A stretch of DNA of 64,000 bases. It comes from Asterochloris sp. CNOR1. Its lineage: Eukaryota > Chlorophyta > Trebouxiophyceae > Trebouxiales > Trebouxiaceae. The notes under the pieces were generated by a model, which searched no databases, was not told the DNA's origin, and worked only from the letters and a program-made list of their open reading frames with translations. Made by a program: the position numbers and the translations under genes. Shown piece by piece: positions 19,795 to 37,109 of this stretch (its first letter is position 1; the number at the start of each line of letters is the position of its first letter). Location: NCBI GenBank assembly GCA_963969365.1, contig OZ017747.1, positions 2,604,001 to 2,668,000 of the forward strand. The letters are read 5' to 3'.

Positions 19795-20051
19795 GTTTGT
19801 TGCAGGTGGGTCAAACCTTTTACAGCTGTTGACCACGCAGTGATCTCCTGTGCCGAGGGAGGCAAGATGTTGTGGGCTGGGTATCAAAAGATATATAGTA
19901 GCCCACATATGTCTGCCCAGGGCTTGACTGCACATGCCAGGCTGCACACTGACCAGCACAGCATTGGCCGAAGAACAATAGCCCTGCCACTGCACAAAAC
20001 TTCAAAGTGAACTGAACAATAGATGTCCAAGCGCAGCAATTTTCAGGGGCC

Positions 20052-20689
20052 CGGACAGAGCAGGTTGATGGCTGTGGCAATGCCCACAGCAGAGAAGTGC
20101 CTCAGGCAGTCCAGCAGGGGCAGCAACACCACACATTGGGTCACCTGGTCCAGGAAGATAGGTCACGATATCTTTGTCAGTGATCCAGACTGCATCACAT
20201 CCTGCTAGAGGCGCCACAAAGTCACAGCTGCCACACCATAGGAGCTGATGGCAGCCTGTCTGCCCAAGCAGTGCCAATCATGCAGAGGCCGCACTCTTTG
20301 AAGTAGCACTCAACTGAAGGAATGGCTTTCAATCTGGGTCCCTCAATCTCCGCGTTGACCCTATGGTTGGTCCCCAGCAACAAATAGTACTGTGCATTCT
20401 GTTCTAACGGGATGTGTCAAGGCCAACCACAGTTGTCTGGAGCCAACACCGTTTGCATATGTCCGCTCAATTGAAGTGCATGCAAATTCATGAAAACAGC
20501 TGCAAGGCATCATTGACCTGCTGCAAGCACATCTGGGATGACAGTCTCAATGACTACAGAAAGTTCCTCCTCTGAACTGGTTGCTGACTGATCGGGTTGC
20601 GGAAAGGCACAGGACACCTTGCTGAGACAGGTCAGGATTCTGCTGGATACTCGTCTCTGGCAGTGTTCACTGCAGTAAGCGGGCAGCAT
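20052..20689 (-). other. Unassigned coding-like sequence between the NOS-globin gene and DPM3
   Basis: Several minus-strand stretches have gene-like codon use. One begins MLPAYC at 20689 and includes SATSSEEELSVVIETVIPDV. A second near 20290-20400 reads YYLLLGTNHRVNAEIEGP and RLKAIPSVECYFKECG. A third ends in TQCVVLLPLLDCLRHFSAVG, IATAINLLCPGP and a stop at 20052. The last two can be joined in phase (donor ATG|GTGTGG near 20245, acceptor near 20147). I could not make the first join, do not recognise a family, and cannot exclude that these are 3' exons of the NOS-globin gene or the start of a small membrane-protein gene. Confidence 0.25.
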
Positions 20690-20715
20690 CAGTGTGACGC
20701 ATTGTCATTTGAGCA

Positions 20716-21956
20716 TCAGAGGCTAGGCATCAACCTGTCTCCACATGCAGTGTTTTGGCAAAGAGAGCTTCCAAGACATCCAGAAAACTTGCCTATCAAA
20801 GAAAATACTGCAAGCCATGCCTCCCGCTCATCGAGGGACCACCGCTTGCCCATGACCTGCTCAAGAGTTCTAAGCAGGCAGGCGCCCAGCACCTGCATGC
20901 ACGCACGGTCAGAGGTCAGCATCAGCTCTCATGCTGCTTGCAACCACCTACCCAATTGAGGCACGCAACCCATCTGAAGCACTGTGAGTGGTGCACAGTG
21001 CAGCCAGTGACATGCAAGGCTGACATCCTTGGGGTTTTGAGGACATCAAGAGGCACTGGCAGCTGGCCAGATTTGCCTCAGCACAGATACAGATTGCATG
21101 CAAAAATTGTACGTGCCAGCTTTGCTGTCACTGTCGGGGATTGCACATCTTTCGCTGGTGCTTTGTCCATGCAAACGAAAGGAACCCACCATCAGGCTCC
21201 TAAGCAACATTCAGCAGCAATGTGGAGTTTTACAGCCATAGCGCACAGCTGCGGTTCCTGATGGCTCAACTTGTTTAGAGAAGTTTTAGAAAGCAAAGCC
21301 ACCCACCTCATACTCCTCCAACTTGACTCCATAGCCAATGTGGCGGCTGGCGAGGTCCTTCAGCTGGGGCACAAGCTTATCCAAGTCATGGAGCATGGCA
21401 ATGACATGGCCCAGCATCTGCATGACCTTCTTGGCATGTTTGCGGAGTTCCTGCAGGGCAGTGTCACAATCAGGGAAGGTGCAGGGTGCAGGGGCTGCCA
21501 GGCAGGGGCCAAAAGCAGACAGGCAGGCATTCCTCACTCACGCTGCTGCACCAGCAGGGAGATACATGGGATGCCATGCAGGAGCGCACAGCATGCGGAT
21601 GAGCACAGTTCATTGCCAAGGAGGTGCAGGCGCTCACTGAATCGACTGGCCGCCCAGTGCTGTCCTTGAAGGGGAACAGCTTGAGCAGGCCAGGCTTCAT
21701 GTCAAAGAGGTGGTGAAACAACACTACCCCTGCAGCATGGTAGGGCACAGACTCAGGCCTGGTCCGGCCTGGTCTGCAGCATGGCATGGCAGGTGCTGGA
21801 GATTGTTCTGCTTTTTTGGTGACATATGTTGTGCTGCCACTGACAACCTGCACCATACTTCCCGAGAAGCACACCGCACAAGTCTGTCTGCTTGCAGCTG
21901 AGGATGCCGTGCATGTCTGTAGGAGGCTCACCATGATCTTCAAGCTGACGCTGCAG
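20716..21956 (-). other. C-terminal globin domain of the NOS fusion
   Basis: Exons 21932-21950 (or from 21956), 21638-21729, 21307-21450 and 20716-20892 give a complete globin fold. RQLEDHGVVLFHHLFDMKPG and LLKLFPFKD cover helices A-C. ELRKHAKKVMQMLGHVIAML is helix E with His in the distal E7 position. DLASRHIGYGVKLEEYE has the proximal F8 His. VLGACLLRTLEQVMGKRWSL and DEREAWLAVFSLIG are helices G-H. It resembles single-domain haem globins of the neuroglobin, plant haemoglobin and flavohaemoglobin class, not truncated globins. The stop at 20716 assumes the last exon is not spliced at 20793. Confidence 0.8.
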
Positions 21957-24900
21957 CTTCCCAGGGTAAGAGTCGCCTGCAAGCCATCCCCATCTGCACA
22001 GCAGGTTCCCACAATAAGAAGCTGCCTGCTGGGGAGTGGTGCAGCTCAAAGCATTGCCCTACGTGGGCTGCTGCAGCTTGGCGCACAGAGGGACCTCAAA
22101 CCACTGTGTGTGGCTGCACACTGACCTCACGGTGGCCCTCTGGTGCCCTACTGCTCACCCTGCCTGGACGCGGCTGATCTTGGCGGTGTCCAGCGCCACT
22201 GCCTGGGCGTCTGCCCTCCCCTCGTTGGTGGGCTTCCACCCCTCCAGCATGGGCCACATGACCGAGAAGTCAGTTTGGCTGGCCGTCAGGCGGGCGCCCC
22301 CAGCCTTGAGCATCTTGACCATCCGCAGGCGCTGGAAGGTCAGCGCAGCCTCCAGGGGGGTGTGGCCCCACCTGCAGGACCGTCATGAGCGAATGGGGTG
22401 AGGCACAGCCAGAGCCCAAGCGCTGAATGACCAGGTGGCAACGCGGTGGTGAAGCTCCACCTACGAGCACCAGACACCAGCAAGTGAGATGCGGCACGGA
22501 CAAGGCTCAGGCGCTGGAACATCCAAGTGGCCCTGAAAGGGCTAACCTGCAACGCTGTTCAACATCATATGAGACCAGCAAGAGAGAGAAGGCACAGGCA
22601 GGAGCCCATGATGCGCTGGGGACAGAGACGCACCGGGCACCCCTGTCCCCTGTCAGTCACAGGTGCTCAGACAGCTTCAGCGTCGAGGCCCTGCTGGTTC
22701 CGTCATGCACGCCTGGTCATGCTTGCCATGAGGGCAGGGGTGCCCTGGGAAGCAGGGCCTGGCACAGAGTGGGTATCTTCAGGCGCTTGACGGCACACCT
22801 GTCGGGTTGGGCAGTGCCTTTGCACCTCTTCTGACAAGCATGTGCCAATGAGAGATGATCACACAAACACAACATGGAAACCTGAACCTGAGTGCAGGCA
22901 GCTCTGACCCACAGCTTGATTCCTCAGCCTACCTGTCGGCCATGTTGACCTGCGCACCGCGCTCCAGCAGCAGGCTAGCCGGCTCCAAGCGGCCAAAGCT
23001 GGCTGCCATCTGCAATGGCGTACAGCCATAGTAGTCCCTCTGCAGGCACAGTTGTGACGTTCTGAAGGGGGTTCAGCCCTCGGCAGGAAGCAGACTGCCA
23101 TCAGGCAGAGCAGGCAGGGCAGCACTGCAGGGATTGAGCAGGAGGCTGGGGCCCATCGCAGGGCCTTGGTGCTGCAGCCCAACAAGCCCCAACAAACAAG
23201 TTGACATGTGATGCACTGCTGCCAGATACAGCAGCCTGAGCAGCAGGCCAGGGAGAGTCAGCATGGCATGGCACCTGGTCCACGACAGCTCCCTTCCGCA
23301 GCAGCTTGTCGAGGGCGGGCATATCGTTGTTCATCGCAGCGACATGAAGCTGCAGCAAGCAGGCTCTGGACTCAGCACATTGGGCGCAGCAAGCCACAGC
23401 TGCCCAGCTTATGCTGTTGGCAGCCTGAAAGCACGTTCCTCGCCCGGAGGGAAGGCTACTCTGCTTGATGTTGTGGGGGGCCGCATTGTATGGCATTCTT
23501 ACCAAGCAGAGCCAGATAGCAGGAGCGCCTTGTGGGGTGCACATGCATTGTGCAGCATTGCAATAGGTCATGTCATCCGTCAGTTGTGCCAAGCTCGCTG
23601 TACAAAATGTAGTGAACATGCGACATGCAAGCTGAAGGTATGCATGCTCTCTGCAGGTCTGCCGAAAGCCGCGCTCCATGTGAGGCCGAGACGCCCACAG
23701 CCAGATGGCACTAGTCCTGCAGGTGCGAGGCAGAGCAGCGCCTCACAGGGTAGAAAGAGGCGTGCATGCTGGAGTAGAGCTGGCTGTGGTTCATCTCCGT
23801 GACGACCTTGCCATGCCCCTTGATGGTGGCCAGGGCAGCAGGGGTCAGGTTCCACGTGTTGATGACGTTGGGGGTGGCGCCCCGAGCCAGCAGGACCTTG
23901 ACCAGGCTGACCGAGCCCGAGTCGGCGGCCACATGCAGCAGCGTGTTGCCGTCGTGGTCTGCCCCATTCACATCCAAGCCGGCATCCAGCTTGTCCATGA
24001 GACCTGCACAAGCAATTCAAGGCGGTGTGCCGGTGCAAGCCAAGGCCCTGCAGCATGAGGCCACTCTCTGTATGCACGAGCAGTGCTGGTGTGTGAAGCC
24101 ACCACAATCGTGCTGCCTGTCATTACAGGTCCCATCCTCTTGAGCTGGACGGGTGCCTACTGTATGGAGGCTTCAGCTCCACAGTTGAGCAGCAGACGGT
24201 GCCAGGCAGGGGGCCTGCTATTTACCAGGCTTGTGACAGGTGGCCAGTCCAGCTTGCGTGCTGGGGCAGACAGACATGCAGAATGCTGTTGCCTGCCATC
24301 CAGAAGCTGGCAGGCCCGTCGACCAGCTTTGAGGCAGGACAGCACACTGCACTCAGAGAGAGTTGAGGGACTGTGCAGGACTGTCAGCCGGGAGCCATGG
24401 GAGCAACCCCAGCTCACCGTTGAGGTCTCCCGCCTGCGCCAGCTTGAGCAGCTCCATGTGTGCTGCCCGGACCTGCGCCAGCTTGGCGCCGTCGCGCACA
24501 ATGGACTGCTGCCCCAGGGTCACCCCAAAGACATCCTGCACCAGCAGGGTCGCGTGTCAGCCCCTGCTTCACATGGCTGTGACCACTGAGTCCCCTGGCA
24601 GCTCCCATGGTGCAGGGGGTGGGTTAGGGTGGCAGTGTCAGGGAGCGACTCGCCAGCAGTACACAACTGACCTCGTGATATCTACCCCTGGCCGCCAGCT
24701 CAGACATGGAGGCGTGCCCTGCAGCCACAAGCATACCTGCCGGCGTGAGCGCCAGAGCACAGGCAGGCACCAGTCTGACCACAGAGACAGCCACCAAATG
24801 AGCCGCGGTGCAGTATGCCCGGGACTGGAGCTCACAGCAACAGGGCAGCTCAGGCTTGCATCACAGCCACTCACCTATGATGCCGGCAAAGGCAGCAGAG

Positions 24901-27900
24901 ACTGCTGCTGCCATGTTAGAGTCACCGCAGATGTAGATATGGGAGTTGGGAGCTGCTAGCATCTCCTTGAGAGTACCTTGCTGCTCCAACACCGTATCCT
25001 GCAGCATGGGAGTCAAGTTGGGAGCTGCCCCTGCAGAGTGGCACAGCTCCAGTGGGGAAGCTAGCTTGCACTAGACTGCAAGGGCTTGGCAATCCCTTGT
25101 CTGGAGGCAGGTTCCCAAGTGCCTGGCGGCTGAGCCATCACCGACTTGCTCAGAGCTCTCAGAGCTGCCCACCTGGACATACTGCTTCTTTTGCCCAGGC
25201 ATCCGCGAGTACGCTACATACACCTGAGTCAGAGCCCCCTTCTCCATGGCAGCATTGATTTCATCCCTGCATGCCAAGCAAGGGGCTCAACTGGGCTAGC
25301 CCACTACTGCATGCCTGCAGCTGCAGAGCGTTCCAGGCTTGCAGATCCATTCCATACCCTTCTCAACCCACGGCTGAGGCTGGCAGAGGCGTCATGCCCT
25401 GCAGCTGGCTACTTGTCTGCAGCAGATGGATGCACAGCAAGCCTGGCACGGCGCTGCCTCGCAGGTGATATGGCAGCTGCCTGTGCTGAGCAGCGCTAGA
25501 TTTGAAGATGCAAGGGCCCACAGCCAAGCTCACTTGAAGAGTGAGGCAGCAGGCGCCTGAGCAACACCCAGCAGTGGGGCGGCAGGGACCGCTTGACACT
25601 CACTTGCAGATGAAGTCAGCAGGAGAGCGGCAGCCGAAGATGAGGATGCAGGGTCCCACAGGCCCACGGCTGAGCAGGCAGAGGCGCTGCTGGATGAAGC
25701 CTCTGCACGGCGCCAGGCCTGTTCCTGCTGCCACCATGACAACACCGCCCATGGCATTCATGGGCAGCCTGAAGGTGGGGACCTGCAGGAAGACAGGAGC
25801 ATCATTGATGGCATTCAGCTTGACAGATCTCAACCCTGGGCACCTGGAAGCCAACATCAGAGGGTGTGTGACCACGTAACCCAGTGTTGAAAGGCGCAGT
25901 GTTGCAAAGCACCATGCAGGGGAAGAGTGCCTGCGCAGCCCTCCTGACAAGTCCACCATACCCACAGCCTTCAGGCAATGGGACCAGCTACTGCAAGGCC
26001 CATGATGGTGCCACACCACACCACACCAGGCCTTGAGACTGCTGACCCCTGGGAGCCAGGAGAGCTTGCCTTGAGGACCCTGAATCTGACTTTCTCCCCA
26101 GGACGGAGGTGGTCCAGGTAGCTGCTGCAGTGCCCCTCCCGCTTGGTCCCATCTGGCAGCGCATACTGCACTGACCCCACTATTAAGTGCACCTCGTTTC
26201 CCACAACCCACGAGCTGCTGGCTATGGAGTAGTACCTGCAGCACCGAGCGTGAGTGAGTGCTAAGACTGATCCTGGGACTGATGCTGATAGTCTGGTGGG
26301 CATGCCAACAATGACTGCTGCCTCAGAGCATTGCTGCGCACTGCATGAGCCCCCTGACAGCCTGTCTGCTGCCTGCGAAGTGGCCTGACGCAGCTTGAGG
26401 CAGCAATTCCCAGGGGATCGCATATGACAAAATGGAAGCATGACTCTAAAGAGCAGTGATCATCCAGCACTGTGTGAAGCCTGTGACCTGCTGCTGTCAG
26501 TCCTCACCTGGTGTGGATGAGGGGGCACAACTGCAACAACACTGTGAAGGGCAGCTGCCCTGACAAGGACGGGAACTCGTCAAAGAGATCTATCCACCTG
26601 CAGACATCAAGGGACCTTGTGAGGCACTGATGCTGGCAAAGCCAGGGTCACTCCCAAGGGCAAAGCGATGGGCCATGTGTGGCATTCAGGCCAGCACAGC
26701 AGAGTCTCTCATGCCAGCAAAAGAGAGGTGCAGCAGATGCAAGCACAGCTCCTGGTAACTGAGGTGAAAACAACACAAGTCTCCACCCAGGCAGGTCTAT
26801 GCAGCTGCAGCAGCCTCCCACCCGGCAGGCAGTCACATTTGGGACACAGGCAACCTCCAAACTCCCTTGAGAGTGCTCAACCTGACCTGCAGCCGCTGGC
26901 CTGTCTCCACTTGGCATGCAGGGTCTCCCTTGTGCTGAGCTGCTTCAGCTCGTCTTGCTCGCGCGAAGCAGCTGCAAACTGCAGTAATAGTGCCGTGCCA
27001 TCTAGTTAGTATGTAGGCAGCCTCAGTGCAACAGCAGCTGCCTGCACTGCACTGTGATATGCACAGCAGGTTTGCCCTCAGCACTGTAGTCTTCTCAGAT
27101 GTGCTCAACACCTGTCACAGGCCATCACAGGCCTGGAGGCTCACTGCGCAGGCTTGTGTCACCAGACTGCTACCATCACCTTTGCTATCAGTGAAAGGGC
27201 GGCCTGAGATGGAGTCTCTAAGAGGCCGACGTACTCTGCAGGGACAGTGCAGGCGACGTCAGCAGATGAGGGGATGCAGAGCCGCTTGCTACCAATCTGC
27301 TGAAGGGTTGTGCCAGCAATCACTGCAGGCGGGCAGTGCTCACCTGAAAGCACTGCCTCGTACGTATTGGGGAGGGGGAAGGGCTTGACTGGCTCATGCG
27401 AGCCCTCTAGGAGCTCCAAGTCAAAGACGTCTGACAATGGGGTGATGCCCAGGTGGCGCCCAAATCTGACTAGCTGGTCATGCGTGATGTGGTGGGTGTT
27501 CTTGGGCAGGACGGCCAGGTGGTCGCCTGCAGGTGCACAAAGTGGGTCAGCACCCTGCTGGCACCGCAGAACACGCGGCACCAGCCAGACCTGGACATGC
27601 GGTCAGCATCCTGCGGGCACAGCACGAGCTGCTCAGCGGCCAGCACACATCCTGAGGCCTTGAAGCCACCGCGCAATGCAGCACCAAAAGGCTCCAGAGC
27701 TTTTGACCAGCAGGTGCACCTCAGCTGCCAGCACCAGGCCAGCTCTGCAGGAGCACCAAGGTGAGCCGCGCCAGACAGCACTCGAAGCCAAGCCTGTGAT
27801 TCACATGTAGCAGGCCGGCCAGCAGCTGCCCACCTGACTGGTACTGCACTGGGGCTTTCTCATTGAGCTTGGCCAGGTCCAGCTTGATGAGCTTAGTGGC

Positions 27901-30900
27901 GCGCGGCCGCTCAGTTTTGTTGAGTAGGTCCTGCTGCGACAAAACGGGCGCCTGCAGGTACTGGTCATCTTCTGCCAGACGCTTGGCACCTGCAGTACAG
28001 CAGCAGCTTGGAGGGATGGTGTGTGCTGTGAAGGAGGCTGCATGGTGAATGCAGCGTAGCACAGCAATAGCAGCTCCCAGACAGAAAGGCTGCTCAGGGC
28101 CAGCGACAGGCCTTCCGCAGCACACAGCACATTTACAGTACAGTGAGGAGGCTGCAGGTTGCTTGGTGCTGGGAGCACAGTGCACAGTGATTGCAGGCAT
28201 TGCATTGCACACAGCATGGTGTACAGGGCTGCAGGAACGTCCTGTGGCTTCTCTACGATTCATGCATCTGCCCAGGTTCAGCTTGAGGCAAGCAAAGGTC
28301 AGAAACCAGATGACTACAGACGCTACCTTAGCTGCTGGCAGGAACAAGACTGCAGGAACAAGCCTGAAGGGTCACCTTGCAGCCTGATGAGGTTGTAGGC
28401 CGGCTTGAGGTCACGCACCCTGACAGTGCTGTCCTGGGCCAGTGTGCTCAGCAAAGCCTCGCACTTTGCAGCTTGGGGCGCAAACTGTAACAGGATGTGG
28501 ACAGTGGCAGTCAATACGTGGCTGAGGCCACTGCACAGGCAGGCCTGCACACGGCTGCAGCAATGATGCTGTTGTTCACCGCCTGTCTTGAGCAGGTACA
28601 TATTGAAGCCAGCTTTGCTTGCTGCTGCAGCTGCTACTGCTGAAAGAGCTGCTGCTGCTGAGCTGTCTGCAGTGAAGGCATGCTGTAGAGATCCAAGGCT
28701 GATCACTGCTGCCAAGAGGGTGCTGCCCACCCTTTTGGCTGTCCCCTCAGCTCTGGCTCAGGGCTTGACCAACATGCAGCTGCAACTGCAAGGGGCTGCG
28801 CACAGCAGTGATGCCACCCACCTGCTGCCTGACAGCATCCAGAACGCCCATTAGCCAGAGTTTGAAGGACTGCTCCTGCCCCCCCAATGCATCGCCCTTG
28901 CCCACCCCGTGCAGGGGCACAGCCCCTGCTTGCAGCATCATGCTGTTGGTGAGGTCAGCAGCGCAGCAGAAGCGGGGGTAGCAGCTGCTGCCCAAACCAA
29001 AGACACTGTAAGCCTTCCCAGCAAAGGGGCCTTTGCCTGTCTCCTGGGCAGACAGCCACTTGAGGAACCTGCAGGCACCAGCAGCAGCACTGCAGAACAT
29101 GCAGCCAATGAACTGGGTGGCGACAGCATAATGCAAAGTTGGGCAGCAGTGCAATCATGGCAACAATCTTGCATCAATCAGAGGCTGCAGGAAGGCCCAG
29201 GTAGGGCCAGATGTCAAGACGGGCATGGCTGCAGCTGCTGCAAGGAACACGCATGTAGCTCTGGATCTGCTCTGGTGCTGTACATATCTCAGTCTGCCTG
29301 ACAGCCCAAACTCACGCGACGGCTGATGCAGGGGGGGCGCCTGAGCCGTAGGTGCTGGTCAGCAGCAGCACCATGTTGTAGCTGCCCAGAGTACGCTCGT
29401 CAGGGTTCAGTGTCTCCATGTTCTCTAGCTGGACGCCAAACTCCCCTTGAAGCACCTTGGTCAACTGCACAGGCAGCACCACATTGGCACAGAGCAGCAT
29501 CGTTTCAAAGTATGCAGCAGAGTGATCCCCTGGCAGCACCTCTGTCATCCGAAGAGGCAGCGCCACATTCGTAGGTGTGGCCACTGTGCAGTGTGCAATG
29601 CATGAGCTCAATGCTGCTGGACCTGAATGCAGGCGACTGTGAAGCAAACAACATTGCAGAGCTGCTGAGGGAGCAGCTCCATGTGCCACAAGGCAAACTT
29701 TGCGGAGCCGCTCAAACATCAGCTGCTGTTGGTCTTGATGTGCAGCTGCGTGGCTGCATCACAGACACAGCCTTACCTGCATGGCAAAGTGCTTGGCTGT
29801 GCCAGACACTGTGGCGTACAGCACCAGCACACGCAGGCGCCGCCGAAGGACCTTGCGCCGCAGCCTGCCCACCAGCAGGGCCACATACGGGTTCAGTGCC
29901 CAGCTGGTGAACACGCCCCTGGCCTGCATGGGCCCCTTCCAAGCTGTCAGGTACCGCTTCCAGCCTGGGGAGTACCTGTGGGCATGGGTTCGCCTGTCAG
30001 CCTGCTGTTGTCCACCAGCAGGAGGGGCAGAGATTGTGGGTGCTGATCTGCAGCGTCCACCAGCAGCAGAGCAGAGAGCACGCCTGTCGGTCTGCAACAT
30101 CCAGTGGGCGACAGCTCAGGCACCTTTGACTAGTTGTCTGAAGCACAAGCCAATCTGGCTAGCATGACATGCGCTGCTTGTGCACCGGGCTGCAGCCCAT
30201 GTCGGGACCTCCAAACCCCACAAAGTGCCTGGCAAGGCCAACTCAGCTCAGACAATGTGGGCGCAGCCCGCCCAATCTCAGCGCAGACACAGAAGCAGAG
30301 TGCTAAGTGAAGCCAGATTGACAGCAGGCAACAGCATCCAGGGCCAGATGGGCAGCGCAAGGCACCAAATGCTGGCCAAGCTGCTGCTATGCAGATTGTT
30401 GAAAAGACATGGGAGCTCACAGGTAGGCAGGCTTAAGGGTGTACTCTGTCATGCTATTCAAGCCCAGGTAGCAGGGAGACGTGTGCGCTGCGACTGCAGC
30501 AGGCGGAGGTGTCAGCAAACAGATCAGCCTGGGCAGCAGACAGCTTCAGACACTGTTGCAGGCAGGAGCCACTCTCACCAGGTGGGATGATCCACTTCCA
30601 GTTGCCTGGAGAGTATCCACGCTGCTTCTTTTCTGCCTGCAGGGTGGATAGCTCGTCATGATAAACAGCGAGCACCTCCAACGTCAGACATGTCCGGCAG
30701 AGCACTTGAACAGCCAGCCAGGTCTGACGAATGCTAATGCAGCAGGACATGCAGCTCTGGCAGGGTCGCATCGGCAGGTGCAGCAGATGTCCTTGACAGA
30801 GCCACTGCTCACATTCCACCAGACCCAAAATGAGGACATGAGGGTGTGGTGGTCCACCATGCCCATGCAGGCCACCCGGAATGAGTGGGTGATGGCCTGA

Positions 30901-33900
30901 TTCAGCACCAGCAGAGCCGCATCCCGCCACCTGCAGGGAGCACGGAGTGATGCAGCAGTCTGTGAGCGGTGGCAACTGCGAAAGCTTGGCCAGGCAGGCA
31001 GAGCCTGCAGAGCACACACCAGGGATGCAGCAACATGGCCATGGCGGGCCGCCCAGGGCAAAGCACGGCCAGGCAGGCAGCTCATGCAGGGTGCAACCAG
31101 TCATGCAGCAGCGTGCCGCAGCAGGGTCACATGGCCAAGCTGGCAGCTCACATGTTTGCGTTGTCCCTGATGTTCAACCCCAGCTGCTCTGCTATGATTG
31201 GCAGCTGGTTGTACCGTCCCTCGTCAGACAAATTTCTGCAGGGCAAGACGTGTGCTCTGGGCGCAGGACAGGAGCGCCAGCAGCTGCGGCCACAACCAGC
31301 TCAGCATAGGCAGCCCACAGGTGCAGAGGTGATTCACAAGCTGCAGCTTCATGCAGCTCAGTGCAGGCAGCTCAAGCGTGACCGCAGATGCTCCAGCGTC
31401 ATTGCAGGGGACATAGCGGTGTGCCTGGGCTGCAATGGTTCAACTACAGCCTCAGACAGGGGCACTCACCGCAAGATCTCAGTGTCTGCATACCATCCAT
31501 TGAAGGGGCAGGCTGTGAAGGTGATCCCCCCCACGCTCAACTCAATGTTGGACACCACAGGGATGCCGTACCATCTAAGGCCCAGGTTTGCAAGCCAGGC
31601 ATGCTTTGGGTGCAGGATGGGGACCTCTGCAGGGCAGTAGCCACATGGGTCAGGTGCTGGGGGGGTACCAGCACAAGGGCAACCGTGATCAGCTCAGGTG
31701 GGCCCACAGCGAGCTGAAAGCTGTAGCAGCATGGCGGTTGGTTTCCGATTTTCTCAGGAGACGCCTGGTGGACGTGACGGCGTGTTGCACAACACACCTG
31801 TGATGTACTGCTCGGGGATCTCGAACAGGTCAGGCTTGCTGGCGGGCGAGGCTTGCAGGACCAGGGGCAGAATGTCGAACCTGCCCGGCCCGTCTGCAGA
31901 GCAGCAACAGCAGCGCTCAAGCGTTCTGTGCACACACACACGCACGGCTGCAGGCACGGCAGCCCCGTGCACTCTGGCAGCGCATGCTAATTGCAGCTCG
32001 CAGCACCGCAGGCCAGCTCAATAGCAACAGCGGCAGCCAGACCAACTGCGCAGCTATCCGCGCTCATGGAGCCCCTTGCGGCAGCCCAGTACTTGCCGGG
32101 TCAGCTGCACAGCTGCAAACAAATCCAAACAGTCAGCAGGACACGTGTCTTGCAGGCCGGCTCAGCAGCACCAGCTGCGGTCACTCTGACTGCGTAGCTG
32201 TCCAGCCCTCTGGCCCTCGAGGTAATCTCACTCATGCACACGTCGGCAGCTCACTTCTTGGTCTCCAACCAAACTCCTGCTGGATCATCTGGGTGAAGGC
32301 CAGCTCAACAGGGTCCCCTATGATTGACATGTCCTCGTGCCTGCAAGAGGTTCAAAGCACTGCTTGGGACAGCTGAGTACCCCTGACACCTGCCCTGACT
32401 CTTGATACATCCAGCAGCGTCGCAGGAGCCCTTTGGCTGCCTTGCGCAGGAACACCTGTGAGCAACTTTCCTGACTGTGCAGCCCTGTGCATATGCTGCC
32501 GCTCACCTGTGGCCTGCATACCGCAGCAGCTGGCTGTTCCACACGCGGCTGCCTCCCTGCTCGGTCAGGGGGTTCTTTGGCTGGAACACGGTGATCCACG
32601 CCTCACTGGCCCCGCTGACAGTCGCAGCCTCTAGGTGCTCCAAGCAGGCTTCAAACATGCCCTGCATTGACCCAGAGTCCAGCCATCAGCTCACAGCACT
32701 TCAGCGCAGCTTGGGCCAGGCCTGCATTCATGCACGCAGTCAGACTGCTGGCGGTGATCAGACTGTCTTGCCCACCTGGTTTGTTGTGACATTCCTCTTG
32801 TCAAACAACTTGAGCTCATTCCAGAACTGCAGGTGGACACAGCAGAGCCTCAGGCACCACGTGCACTCAGTGCACCAGACTGGCAGTGGGTTTTGGGAAC
32901 TGCAGTAGAGCGTTGGCAGAAAGCTCCGATGCACCTTTCGATTGGAGCACTTGGGTGCATTTCTCCAGGCCAGCCTGGCACCATATTGAAGCTCGTTGTA
33001 GGCGAGCTCATATGTGCCGTTCCTGCGGATCTGGTCAAGCACCTGCTCCACCCTGGCAGCCTTTGTTTCTGATGTGGAGCCATTTTCTGCATGGTAGATG
33101 TCCTGCAGGCAGGGTCGCAGCTGTTCGGACCACCTGATAGGGCTGCTCCTCCCAGAGGTGGTTAGCCATGTGAAGAGCTGCTGAGGAGATGCCAAAGCAC
33201 AGCCAGCCCCAACCCAAGGTTGCCAGCAGCTGTGCAGATGGTGCCGCTGGCAGACAGCAGGTGCCTCTGATGGTGCAGGCAGGCCACTGAAGCCTGCGCT
33301 TCCCCTGCAGCAGCACTGCTGCCTCTGTCCATTGAACTTGCCTGAAACTCCAAGGCCTCCCGCACCAGGATCTCTGCAGGCGACTCCTCCTCGCCCAGAT
33401 CCGGATCTGGCACACATCCCCGGGGGCAGATTTGAGGATGCCGGCCATGCACATACCCTGCATCATTCAGTGTTGGCCTGGTCTCGTCTCACAGGGCAGC
33501 ACTTGTGCAGCGCCAGGGCCACTTGCTACTCTGCCTCTCAGGTGCCAGTTCATCAGCACGCCACATCTCTTTGGCGTGCAGGGAGCCAGCTGCAGGGTGT
33601 CTGCTTAGAGGCCACATCAGATGCAAGACGCGTTTTCATAGCACAGCACCTTCAGCTGGGTTTGCTGAGGCCCTCGTGCAGCAGGCCCACTCACCTGGGT
33701 AGGGCTTGCACCCCACAGAACCATGCAGGAAAGGGCACAGTCCAGGGGCTGCCATCGGCAAGGCTTCAACGCTGCGCCGCCCATCGCTGCTCTTGCCGCT
33801 GGGCTCTACAGCATTACCAGCACTGTGGCTGTGAGTGCTGGACTGCACGCCGCTGGTGCTGACCCTGACGCTATGCTTCTTGCCGTCTGCACTATCCAGC

Positions 33901-34067
33901 AGCTGGGGTCTGCGTGGCTGCATAGCATCCAGGGCCCCCTTGAGCCCATTCTCATGTGTGGCCTGCTGGCTCTGCCCGCTGCTGTTGCTCAGAGATGGGC
34001 TCACAATGCTGTCATGGCTGTTAGCAATGTCCTGTGGGGGGTGGGTCACATTGAGTTGTCGAGACAT
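20716..34067 (-). CDS. NOS: Nitric oxide synthase with C-terminal ankyrin repeats and globin domain
   Basis: NOS makes NO and citrulline from L-arginine, O2 and NADPH. About 35 exons run from the ATG at 34067 to a stop at 20716 and would encode about 1,546 residues: NOS oxygenase, a basic linker helix, FMN module, FAD/NADPH module, NOS tail, about five ankyrin repeats, then a globin. I followed the phase through every junction and all close. Key exons: 33695-34067, 33342-33457, 32935-33102, 32507-32661, 31470-31626, 29777-29975, 28822-29068, 27344-27526, 26070-26235, 25604-25782, 24418-24535, 23747-24003, 22164-22371, 21638-21729, 21307-21450, 20716-20892. GC donors occur after 33342 and 26070. 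The ankyrin-globin junction needs another GC donor (22164) and a 19-nt exon (21932-21950). The 3' end is uncertain: a GC donor at 20793 could extend it. Confidence 0.8.
22164..24535 (-). other. Ankyrin-repeat segment fused to the NOS tail
   Basis: The exon 24418-24535 carries both the NOS tail and the first ankyrin helix (ELLKLAQAGDLN), so the fusion is within one exon. It continues in phase to LDAGLDVNGADHDGNTLLHV, AADSGSVSLVKVLLARGA, TPNVINTWNLTPAALATIKG (23747-24003), LHVAAMNNDMPALDKLLRKG (23275-23349), YYGCTPLQMAASFGRLEPAS (22933-23039) and WGHTPLEAALTFQRLRMVK (22164-22371). This is about five repeats, the last irregular. Ankyrin repeats bind protein partners; the partner here is unknown. 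Confidence 0.85.
24418..29975 (-). other. NOS reductase domain (FMN, FAD, NADPH)
   Basis: FMN module: LYATVSGTAKHFAMQ, LLLTSTYGSGAPPASA and GKAYSVFGLGSSCYPRF. Linker and FAD module: APVQYQSGDHLAVLPKN, WIDLFDEFPSLSGQLPF, then YYSIASSSW (RxYSIxSS) and GHCSSYLDHLRPGEKVRF. NADPH module: MVAAGTGLAPCRGFIQQR, LIFGCRSPADF, VAYSRMPGQKKQYVQ and HIYICGDSNMAAAV. The tail reads ARGRYHE joined in phase to DVFGVTLGQQSI, which aligns with the YHEDIFGVTLRTYEV tail of animal NOS. That identifies the whole as NOS rather than a P450 reductase fusion. Confidence 0.88.
29500..29595 (-). repeat. Decayed copy of a NOS exon start with its acceptor, in the intron upstream
   Basis: The FMN exon starting at 29464 is preceded by CCAATGTGGTGCTGCCTGTG, then CAG and TTGACCAAGGTGCTTCAAGG. 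About 82 bp upstream (minus sense) is CGAATGTGGCGCTGCCTCTT followed by CGGATGACAGAGGTGCTGCC. Translated, NVVLPVQLTKVLQGE matches NVALPLRMTEVLPGD. The upstream copy lacks the acceptor AG at the matching place. Confidence 0.65.
29777..34067 (-). other. NOS oxygenase domain and putative calmodulin-binding helix
   Basis: After a Ser-rich N-terminus come LCPFLHGSVGCKPYP and CPRGC, then the haem Cys motif in ARLAWRNAPKCSNRK (usual form WRNAxRCxGR). Next are RVWNSQLLRYAGHR, MSIIGDPVELAFTQ, GRFDILPLVLQASP, RWYGIPVVSNIELSVGG, the substrate loop ACPFNGWYADTEI with the arginine-binding Glu, EGRYNQLPIIAEQLGLNIRD, MGMVDHHT and GNWKWIIPP. The exon 29777-29975 ends the domain and contains FTSWALNPYVALLVGRLRRK followed by VLRRRLR, a basic amphipathic stretch exactly where NOS enzymes bind calmodulin, directly ahead of the FMN site VLVLYATVSGTAKHFA. 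Catalytic groups are present; the haem loop is divergent. Confidence 0.88.
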
Positions 34068-34604: not shown

Positions 34605-37109
34605 TCATCCATTTGGCATGCTGCAGGCAGCCCGTATCATTGGCATGACTTGGTTCCCTGGAAAGCGTCCAAGGACGCCCCTTGCTGCCTCGGTCTCAGA
34701 AAAGCTGGTGACAGCATCTCCAAACTGCAAGGCCGCATCCGCTTGCCATGCACTACCGCGCCGCTGCACTGCCGCCTGCGCCACCTGCTGGAGGCCAGGC
34801 TGCTGCTGTGGCCCCTGCTGGTGCGGCATTGCGCCTAGCTGGACAGCACTTAGCGCTGCCTCTCCTCCCATGCAGGCCACCTGCAGATAAGTGTGGTGCC
34901 CCGCTACATGCAGGAGGCCATTGCAGTGCCTGCATGCAGCACCAGCATCCGGGTGCAGCTGTGAGGCCCTTGCAGTGCTCACATGCTGTTCAGTGCAGCT
35001 CAAGGCTCACTCACCACATGCTGAATGTGAGCCAGCGCAAAGGGGACAGGCTCGTGAGAGTGGTCCCCGGTGAGCACAGGGGTGCTGTGGTCCCCAGTGA
35101 TGCAGATCATGAAGCGTTTGCTGCTGGCCTCCTCAGCTGCACACAAGCGCTTGATGAGCTGCTGCACCATCAAGTCCACCGACTCCAAGTATCTGACCTG
35201 CAGAGTGTCAGCAGGGCGACTGGCTTCACCAGTCACTTGTGCAAGGCATGGGGATTATAAATGCTGATCAGCCATGCAACAAATGAAACTCAGACCGGTC
35301 TGCCATGTATGTGCTGCACAAAGAGCTAAGACTAGGGGGGTTGGATAATTGCCAGGGGGCTTGCCTTCATCACGGGCTGTCTGTCGTGACCCGCATCATC
35401 AACAGCCTTGACATGCAGGAAGCCAAAATCATACTGCCCAGAGGACAGTGCCCTGGCAATGACCTCAGCCTTCACATGTAGCTGCGTCCCATAGTCCCCT
35501 GCAGCAGCAAGGCTGCCCTTCACCACAGGCAAACCGTACTACCCTAGGGTGCAGAACATGGCAGCTGAGGGAAAATGTGTTCCTGACACACTGTGAATGG
35601 AGACAGGGCCCAGCTGACCTGTGGTGCCAGGGGCCTCCAGTCTGTCAATGCCCAGTGACATGCCCAAGCCTGCAATGATTTTGGTGGGGGCCACCATGCA
35701 GGCACGCATGCCATGCTTGTCCTGAAAAGGCTGCACTGCAATCCTGCAGGCATCAGCAGACCCTTCAGGTAGCCAGAAAGGTTTATGGCCAGCAATGTGC
35801 CAAACGTCTGCTCACCTAGAGCCACAGCCTCTGAGCAGCACCACATTGGCAGGCCGCTTGCCCTCGGCCTGGCGTCTAATGTTAATTGGATGGGCTGCCA
35901 GCACCTGCTGGATGCAGCTAGACAGCTCGTTCACCACAGCTGCAGTGTGTGCAGCCTCTAGCGACTCGTCCAGAGGCTTGGCTTCCTGCAGGGGGCCGGC
36001 ATGAGCTTAGTTGTTGAAGCGAGAAGCGTTGCAAGGGGGGCAAGCCTCAGCTGCAGGCTACGGTGCTGCAGGCAGGCACCGGGGCAGACCTGGAGGGGTA
36101 GGTTATCCTTCAGTGGGTCTGTGCCAGAGATTTGGTCAGACAGGCCTGTGCCGCTGACCACAACCCCACAACGGTGCTCTGTGGCATACTTGACGCTGAT
36201 GCGATATCCAGGAAAATTGGGTAGCCTGAGTCCTGCAGGAGGCACACCGGTGCTGCATGGATGAAACGGGCTAACTCTCACTGGCTGCCTGGGCGGTGGC
36301 AGCCCACAGCAGGTAGTGCATGGGACACTGCACATGTTGTCAGCACTCACCATCCAAGGCAGCACACAGCATTGGCCCTGCCACCTCAAAATGGCGGTCT
36401 GCCCTACGCTTGAGGACCACCTGACTTGCTGGCTCCACAACTGCAAAGTTGCACTTGAAGGCAATGTCGCCTGGCACCTGCAGCTCATGAATTGCCGCTC
36501 TCAGGTTTTGTTGTCGCACATCACGTCCTAGCATGCTTTTCTGTGAGGCCCACCTCACCATATTGATGCCGGCACCCATGCTCTCAAATGCCCCACGCCC
36601 TCTGTAGTAGCTGCAGGCAGTAGCAATACGCATGAGGAAGGCTCAGTGCCGGCCGCAGCAGTTGCTGCATAAGCAGAATCAGTGCATATGGGTATGCAGA
36701 TGCTAGATAGTGTTGCCGCATAGTCATGACGCAGCCGCTAAAACATTTGCCGCCAGAGTGAGATCGGCGCATCTCACATCCTAGGATCATAGCCAAAGAT
36801 GGACAGGTGAGCTGTGTCACTGCCACAGGCCAGGCCAGGCTCCACAGGATCTAGAAGGCCATTCACTCCTGCCGCTGCAGGGGCACTGGTGCATGTTCAG
36901 GCAAGGAGGGACAACTGCCAGAGCTATGTGACTGCAGCTGCAGGCTGACCTGCTGTGGCATCCATTGCCTTGGTGTCTGCAGCTTCCAAGGGAGTGAGGT
37001 GGTTCAGATCAGGCAAATGCACATCGCCCAAGCCATCAATCAGGACAAAGGCCACAGCTGCCTGTAGCTCAGGTGCATGAGCTGTTGCTGCCTCTGTGTG
37101 CCGCACCAT
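34605..37109 (-). CDS. apgM: 2,3-bisphosphoglycerate-independent phosphoglycerate mutase, apgM type
   Basis: This interconverts 3- and 2-phosphoglycerate in glycolysis and belongs to the alkaline-phosphatase superfamily. Ten exons (36950-37109, 36778-36868, 36559-36610, 36351-36477, 36090-36232, 35816-35985, 35619-35743, 35365-35498, 35015-35197, 34605-34724) close in phase to 434 residues. Motifs: FVLIDGLGD (metal site), [116 protein letters not shown] (metal and catalytic block) and [15 protein letters not shown] at the end. The exon ending at 35365 uses a GC donor (AAG|GCAAGC). An in-frame ATG at 37139 would add ten residues. The apgM family is mostly archaeal and bacterial but known from algae; no targeting peptide is visible. 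Confidence 0.9.

Follow-up and report, generated by a model that had tools for sequence, protein, structure and literature searches.

The window analysed here, i.e., the whole stretch of 64,000 nucleotides from Asterochloris sp. CNOR1 (contig OZ017747.1, positions 2,604,001 to 2,668,000), has a GC content of ~0.59. It holds an intron-rich gene on the minus strand, with a coding span of 20632..34067 in a single reading frame, whose translated aa sequence displays a nitric oxide synthase (NOS), a series of ankyrin (ANK) repeats and a globin. Pieces of a metalloenzyme-superfamily gene are found upstream at 35000-35538 (Pfam, one piece above and one below the cut-off). Downstream are DPM3 at 19.5-20.0 kb and an RPB4-like gene at 17.6-18.3 kb, both detected with Pfam. 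These three neighbours are also on the minus strand, and none is a nitrogen-metabolism gene. A promoter and terminator scan remained at chance level; the models used were bacterial and not made for algae.

Exons were joined by hand-reading of the minus strand, and the joins were then checked by script. A model of 35 exons runs from an ATG at 34067 to a stop at 20716 and yields 1562 aa in phase with no internal stops; every intron has a GT or GC donor and an AG acceptor. Exon 1 (33695..34067) encodes, as an ORF reading, a Ser/Thr-rich N-terminal region. The ATG is the first in its open stretch, and a further upstream exon is possible. The last exon of this model contains a donor-like sequence, ATAG/GCAAGT (slash at the junction), which would splice to an acceptor before 20669. 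A corrected model therefore adds a GC-AG intron, 20670..20792, on the basis of splice signals and globin score, and has 36 exons and 1549 aa. Exon 36 (20632..20669) encodes the end of the globin H helix and the stop codon TGA at 20632-20634. The protein then ends in EAWLAVFSLIVNTARDEYPAES, an unbroken H helix, whereas the 35-exon model ends in GKFSGCLGSS. The globin profile score is 72.7 bits with the 36-exon model and 70.8 bits with the 35-exon model, and the match extends to position 115 instead of 113 of the 117 profile positions. By this small margin, the 36-exon, 1549-aa end is probably to be preferred over the stop at 20716. The original prediction of about 35 exons with no stop thus stands as to the in-phase joining and the absence of internal stops, but its 3′ end at 20716 is probably intronic and the exons probably number 36.

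GC donors are found in three of the 35 introns of the corrected model, and 32 of the 35 would introduce an in-phase stop if retained. Stops occur in the intron sequence at 2.4-3.0% per codon, depending on the frame, such that approximately 37-47 would be expected in 1549 codons; none is seen. It should be noted that the splice sites were picked by eye with known families in mind, and thus the stop count is support and not a blind test, and the domain scores are the stronger evidence. The longest intron, 561 bases, separates exons 30 and 31 and lies inside the ankyrin array. A pseudogene was ruled out, as there is no internal stop and the catalytic residues are retained.

A Pfam search of the spliced 1562-aa protein gave, in order, NO_synthase (PF02898) at residues 153-514 (E 4e-123), Flavodoxin_1 at 563-699 (E 9e-21), FAD_binding_1 at 756-978 (E 1e-36), NAD_binding_1 at 1010-1119 (E 6e-18), Ank with its best stretches between 1194 and 1363 (E 6e-21), and Globin at 1429-1537 (E 5e-18). 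The Pfam globin family, PF00042, is taken here to stand for the M-family globins. The search bears out the earlier reading of a full NOS followed by ankyrin repeats and a globin in one frame, and the three parts are, as read from the DNA, one gene in one reading frame.

The NOS oxygenase is encoded by exons 2-13 (29969..33374). It is preceded by the motif CPRGC at residues 135-139 (33414..33428), a putative zinc site of the CX3C type. In alignment, the oxygenase retains the haem Cys215, the stacking Trp, the arginine-binding Glu398, and the pterin Arg and Trp; the haem Cys and arginine Glu had both been read before. It is 43% identical to an eNOS chain. A basic linker, residues 515-562 (29825..29968), lies between the Pfam domains and sits, by its inferred position, where animal NOS bind calmodulin. 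The FMN (flavodoxin) domain, residues 563-699, is found at 28855..29824, and the FAD and NADPH domains, residues 756-1119, are at 24897..27963. Among solved chains the best match of the reductase is nNOS. Query residues 79-89 of the reductase align with residues 79-128 of nNOS, and a long insert present in nNOS is missing in the alga. In a comparison with eNOS only, the helical lariat shows a two-residue insert after PCY, which corresponds to PVF in eNOS. The CX3C site and the helical-lariat insert are described as marks of algal or non-mammalian NOS (PMC8728061), and the Asterochloris gene displays both core marks of the green-algal enzymes, CX3C rather than CX4C and the lariat insert. The sequence is that of a complete NOS of animal layout, catalytic residues included, and the protein is a putative NO synthase.

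The haem-gate position was compared in a 25-row oxygenase alignment. The algal NOS has Val, as does eNOS. Ile is found in all 10 rows grouped as N-terminal-globin NOS and in seven further rows, one of which is from an IMG/VR contig. Six bacterial NOS have Val (L010, L011, L012, L027, L030 and L031). Ile at this position is stated for all bacterial NOS and is linked to slower NO release (PMC6104048). In a tree of the same number of oxygenase rows, the algal protein is on a long branch (1.3) beside eNOS. This may be a long-branch join, and for this reason no descent is drawn from the tree.

Exon 27 (24418..24535) carries FGVTL (residues 1151-1155), the tail, and a helix, from His1174 onwards, that matches the beginning of an ankyrin repeat in alignment. 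Thus the NOS does run into the ankyrin repeats within one exon, as originally read, and the YHEDVFGVTL tail can be read directly in the translation. The ankyrin repeats extend over residues 1174-1365 (22278..24460), as assessed by Pfam and alignment, and form about six units by eye. The final ankyrin repeat and the linker behind it are encoded by exon 31 (22159..22371), in which the globin A helix also seems, by eye, to begin.

The globin domain, residues 1396-1549 (20635..22187), was delimited with Pfam and alignments. Alignment with neuroglobin places Phe1430 at B10, Phe1444 at CD1, His1461 at E7, Val1465 at E11 and His1493 at F8. The closest solved relatives are the Methylacidiphilum globin 3wfw (1e-14), the neuroglobins (4e-14) and the plant class 1 haemoglobins (3e-11). 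Among the chains listed, the Methylacidiphilum globins (3wfw and 3s1i), the class 1 plant haemoglobins and the neuroglobins are not fused to a NOS. Phe at B10 and His at E7 are common to the algal globin and neuroglobin, whereas 3wfw has Tyr at B10 and Gln in the E7 column.

A different picture is seen with the globins of bacterial NOS. The algal globin scores 57 bits against 3wfw and 55 bits against neuroglobin, both chosen as its best PDB hits, but 9-24 bits against the globin pieces of nine bacterial N-terminal-globin NOS, a set that does not include SyNOS (Synechococcus PCC 7335) itself. The L020 globin, one of these nine, has scores of 43-73 bits with the seven others that are not near copies of it, and reaches 32 bits with 3wfw and 28 bits with neuroglobin. 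Position B10 is Tyr in all nine, and His is absent from their E7 column. With such low scores, a bacterial N-terminal NOS globin was ruled out as close kin. The gene does not have the N-terminal, SyNOS-type globin of the SyNOS-type fusions, its globin being C-terminal. By sequence, the algal globin is closer to the neuroglobin type than to the bacterial N-terminal fusions.

Intron 34 (20893..21306) is a phase 0 intron between residues 1504 and 1505. It is situated eleven residues past F8, at G6/G7 by the neuroglobin register, and we take it to be at G7.0, where vertebrate and plant globin genes have an intron. The algal globin has no intron at B12.2, the other classical position. With five introns in 154 globin codons, the chance of one hit at a named position is approximately 1%, and the G7.0 intron is therefore modest evidence that the domain descends from a eukaryotic globin gene.

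Searches of the alga's own genome covered 56.4 Mb in 21 contigs. PF02898 gave four exon matches, all within the gene described here, and thus one NOS gene was found. A profile search for a second PF00042 globin in this genome found none. An exon-by-exon search found no H-NOX, PTPS or truncated globin at E 0.001; these negatives are weak, since exons were searched singly and the same type of search caught only four exons of the NOS oxygenase itself. If true, the absence of these genes would leave no obvious NO receptor of these kinds and no obvious biopterin route of this kind. The genome is read as that of a green alga from its light-harvesting genes. It has 31 chlorophyll a/b-binding exon matches, and the one at L040 matches, among solved chains, first an LHCI chain of 9vfj and then LHCII. 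An animal contaminant was ruled out on this basis.

The novelty suspected for the C-terminal order did not hold up against the published record. KnNOS2 of Klebsormidium nitens (GAQ90485.1) is described as the “NOS-Globin model”, with a NOS, an ANK motif and an M-family globin, and a C-terminal globin on NOS is counted in seven algal species (PMC8728061). The Gonium case is credited there to Santolini 2019, and Chlorokybus, Mesostigma, Chlamydomonas incerta, C. schloesseri and Edaphochlamys are added (PMC8728061). In this source the NOS-Globin form is described by domain content and tree (PMC8728061). On its domain order, the Asterochloris gene is almost certainly a further example of the published NOS-ANK-globin arrangement. 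It has the features of the KnNOS2 form, i.e., a complete oxygenase and diflavin reductase, an ankyrin extension, and a C-terminal globin with both His. Compared by description, both genes have the order NOS, ANK, globin. The C-terminal extension of KnNOS2 is given as ~380 residues, and 394 residues follow FGVTL in the Asterochloris gene; the KnNOS2 globin is described with distal and proximal His (PMC8728061), which correspond to His1461 and His1493 here. In Gonium, C. incerta, C. schloesseri, Edaphochlamys, Chlorokybus and Mesostigma, also compared by description, the globin is likewise C-terminal. The NOS core is also common to OtNOS (Ostreococcus tauri) and KnNOS1, and the available text mentions no ankyrin repeats or globin for either. 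KnNOS2 is stated to be unrelated to those NOS of Edaphochlamys and Chlamydomonas that carry a globin, and independent origins are suggested (PMC8728061); members of the NOS-globin group may therefore differ in function. Beyond PMC8728061, no NOS with both a globin and ankyrin repeats was found for algae in the open literature, a search with subscription journals mostly outside it. No report of such a NOS gene in trebouxiophytes, Asterochloris or lichen algae was found among titles and the opening lines of abstracts.

SyNOS also has a NOS and a globin in one chain, but its globin is placed before the oxygenase. Scanning with patterns turned up 27 bacterial loci with a NOS, together with one IMG/VR contig, and one ORF from each of 26 of these 28 loci was searched with Pfam (L033 and L035 were left out). 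A globin was detected in nine of the 26 ORFs, always N-terminal to the oxygenase. No ankyrin repeats and no C-terminal globin were detected in the 26 at E 0.001, and in this the bacterial ORFs differ from the algal gene, where ankyrin repeats are present; four of the 28 NOS ORFs (L013, L019, L022 and L036) are cut at the 3′ side by a contig end, and a C-terminal domain could be missed in these. A globin model of our own, run on every ORF of 80 aa or more from the 28 loci, adds L019, a weak match before the oxygenase in L018 (E 2e-5), and a flavohaemoglobin-like ORF in L037. Seven proteins had further matches to this model, most of them short. Two such matches, 29 and 13 residues long, are after the oxygenase and were taken for noise. 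The longest, at 64-158 of L024, precedes the main globin and might be a counterpart of the SyNOS pseudoglobin.

Several of these loci display arrangements of their own. In an Acidobacteriota MAG (L018:4471-8469, plus strand), the NOS ORF groups with the N-terminal-globin enzymes and has a weak globin trace at 437-505, possibly a lost or decayed globin. In four loci (L011, L027, L031 and L036), cyclic-nucleotide-binding, BFD-like iron-sulphur and FAD domains, with or without NAD, are followed by a C-terminal NOS oxygenase. In an uncultured Pleurocapsa (L010:3189-6743, plus strand), an EF-hand pair, a BFD-like domain and FAD/NAD domains are found ahead of the oxygenase, and the EF-hand pair is a possible direct calcium switch. 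The IMG/VR contig, of 165 kb, has an ORF for a flavohaemoglobin-like protein of 442 aa with globin, FAD and NAD domains, and this ORF shares four bases with the start of another that encodes a stand-alone NOS oxygenase of 376 aa (L037:4628-7083, plus strand). Judged by their domains, an NO maker lies here beside a likely NO oxidiser. The contig is filed as viral; an HNH endonuclease is nearby, and most of the other ORFs scanned had no match. In the search of viral contigs for globins, eight stretches matched a pattern and none was confirmed.

As to function, electrons from NADPH would pass through FAD and FMN to the haem of the oxygenase, where NO would be made from arginine. The C-terminal tail and the ankyrin arm would hold the globin near the reductase. 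In its reduced, O2-bound form, the globin would oxidise part of the NO to nitrate, and the chain would thereby set how much NO escapes. The ankyrin array would position the globin and may also dock a partner protein. A single chain that produces NO and also oxidises or senses it, as suggested, is reasonable by analogy with SyNOS, whose globin acts as an NO dioxygenase that oxidises NO to nitrate (PMC12922734). By cryo-EM, the C-terminal tail of SyNOS holds the globin and the FMN domain together and mediates the contacts between them (PMC12922734). The algal globin hangs on this same C-terminal tail, and a similar spatial placement is therefore plausible. The function of the SyNOS globin is not simply transferable, as the algal globin is closer to another globin type. 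The overlapping ORFs of the IMG/VR contig, in which a NOS and a globin again occur together, also favour this scheme. We consider the making of NO and its partial oxidation to nitrate within one chain to be the best explanation overall, and a somewhat probable one.

That NO dioxygenation is the main role of the globin has approximately even chances. The pocket, with Phe at B10 and His at E7, is by sequence of the neuroglobin type and not of the Tyr B10 type, which argues against this role; neuroglobin-type globins may be six-coordinate and slow. Reduction of the SyNOS globin, for which the FAD-bearing domain is probably responsible, proceeds at 0.22 per second (PMC12922734), a slow rate that by analogy would also speak against it. 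In addition, the animal-type Val at the haem gate may favour fast NO release over capture (PMC6104048).

The main rival explanation, which we regard as possible but distinctly less probable than oxidation of NO within the chain, is that the globin is a sensor or gate. Binding of O2 or NO, or the redox state of the haem, would move the C-terminal tail by way of the ankyrin arm, and the flow of electrons to the oxygenase would be switched with little NO consumed. The neuroglobin-type pocket is in keeping with such a role, although we know of no sensor globin of this kind on a NOS. The point of fusion is the C-terminal tail, which matters for the redox flux of NOS (PMC12922734). However, SyNOS, the nearest NOS-linked globin that has been tested, is an NO dioxygenase (PMC12922734).

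It is also conceivable, but improbable, that the main task of the globin, at low oxygen, is to reduce nitrite to NO or to store O2, and that it extends NO output in this way. This is compatible with everything in the sequence, and nitrite reduction belongs to the chemistry of hexacoordinate globins, but the attached oxygenase itself requires O2.

Least probable, and very unlikely in our estimate, is that there are two transcripts or genes, one for the NOS and ankyrin repeats and a separate one for the globin, joined only in the gene model. In its favour, TGTAA, the algal poly(A) signal, is found in introns at 28137, 24127 and 21234 but nowhere from the stop at 20632 to position 19824, which speaks mildly against a tidy gene end, and the exon 31 linker that leads from the ankyrin repeats to the globin has in-frame Met codons that could act as a start. 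Against it, exon 31 stays in phase from the last ankyrin repeat through its linker to what is, by eye, the A helix, exons 31 and 32 are separated by just 165 bases of intron, and the published KnNOS2 has the same domain order. The estimate for this alternative was raised slightly, from one that was lower still, because of these Met codons and because exon 32 is where the alignments with solved globins start, the A helix in exon 31 being a by-eye reading.

With the reading of one gene and one chain, the Asterochloris sequence adds an apparently intact NOS-ANK-globin gene whose introns are all mapped; the searches of its genome turned up no further NOS and no further PF00042 globin. A broader and more tentative reading is that NOS and globin were joined on two or more occasions, the globins differing in type and sitting at opposite ends of the NOS, with both haems at the reductase tail and, in the alga, calmodulin replaced. 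If this were true, bacteria would have the N-terminal SyNOS-type globin, and green algae a C-terminal, neuroglobin- or phytoglobin-like bis-histidyl globin of eukaryotic descent, attached by way of ankyrin repeats. An NO-consuming haem would lie against the C-terminal tail of the reductase in both fusions, and in the alga the tail, ankyrin arm and globin would replace calmodulin as the switch between NO and nitrate. The contrast in globin type, together with the common attachment near the C-terminal tail, makes the repeated origin of NOS-globin fusions testable; such a repeated origin would concern the coupling of NO making and NO removal in one molecule.
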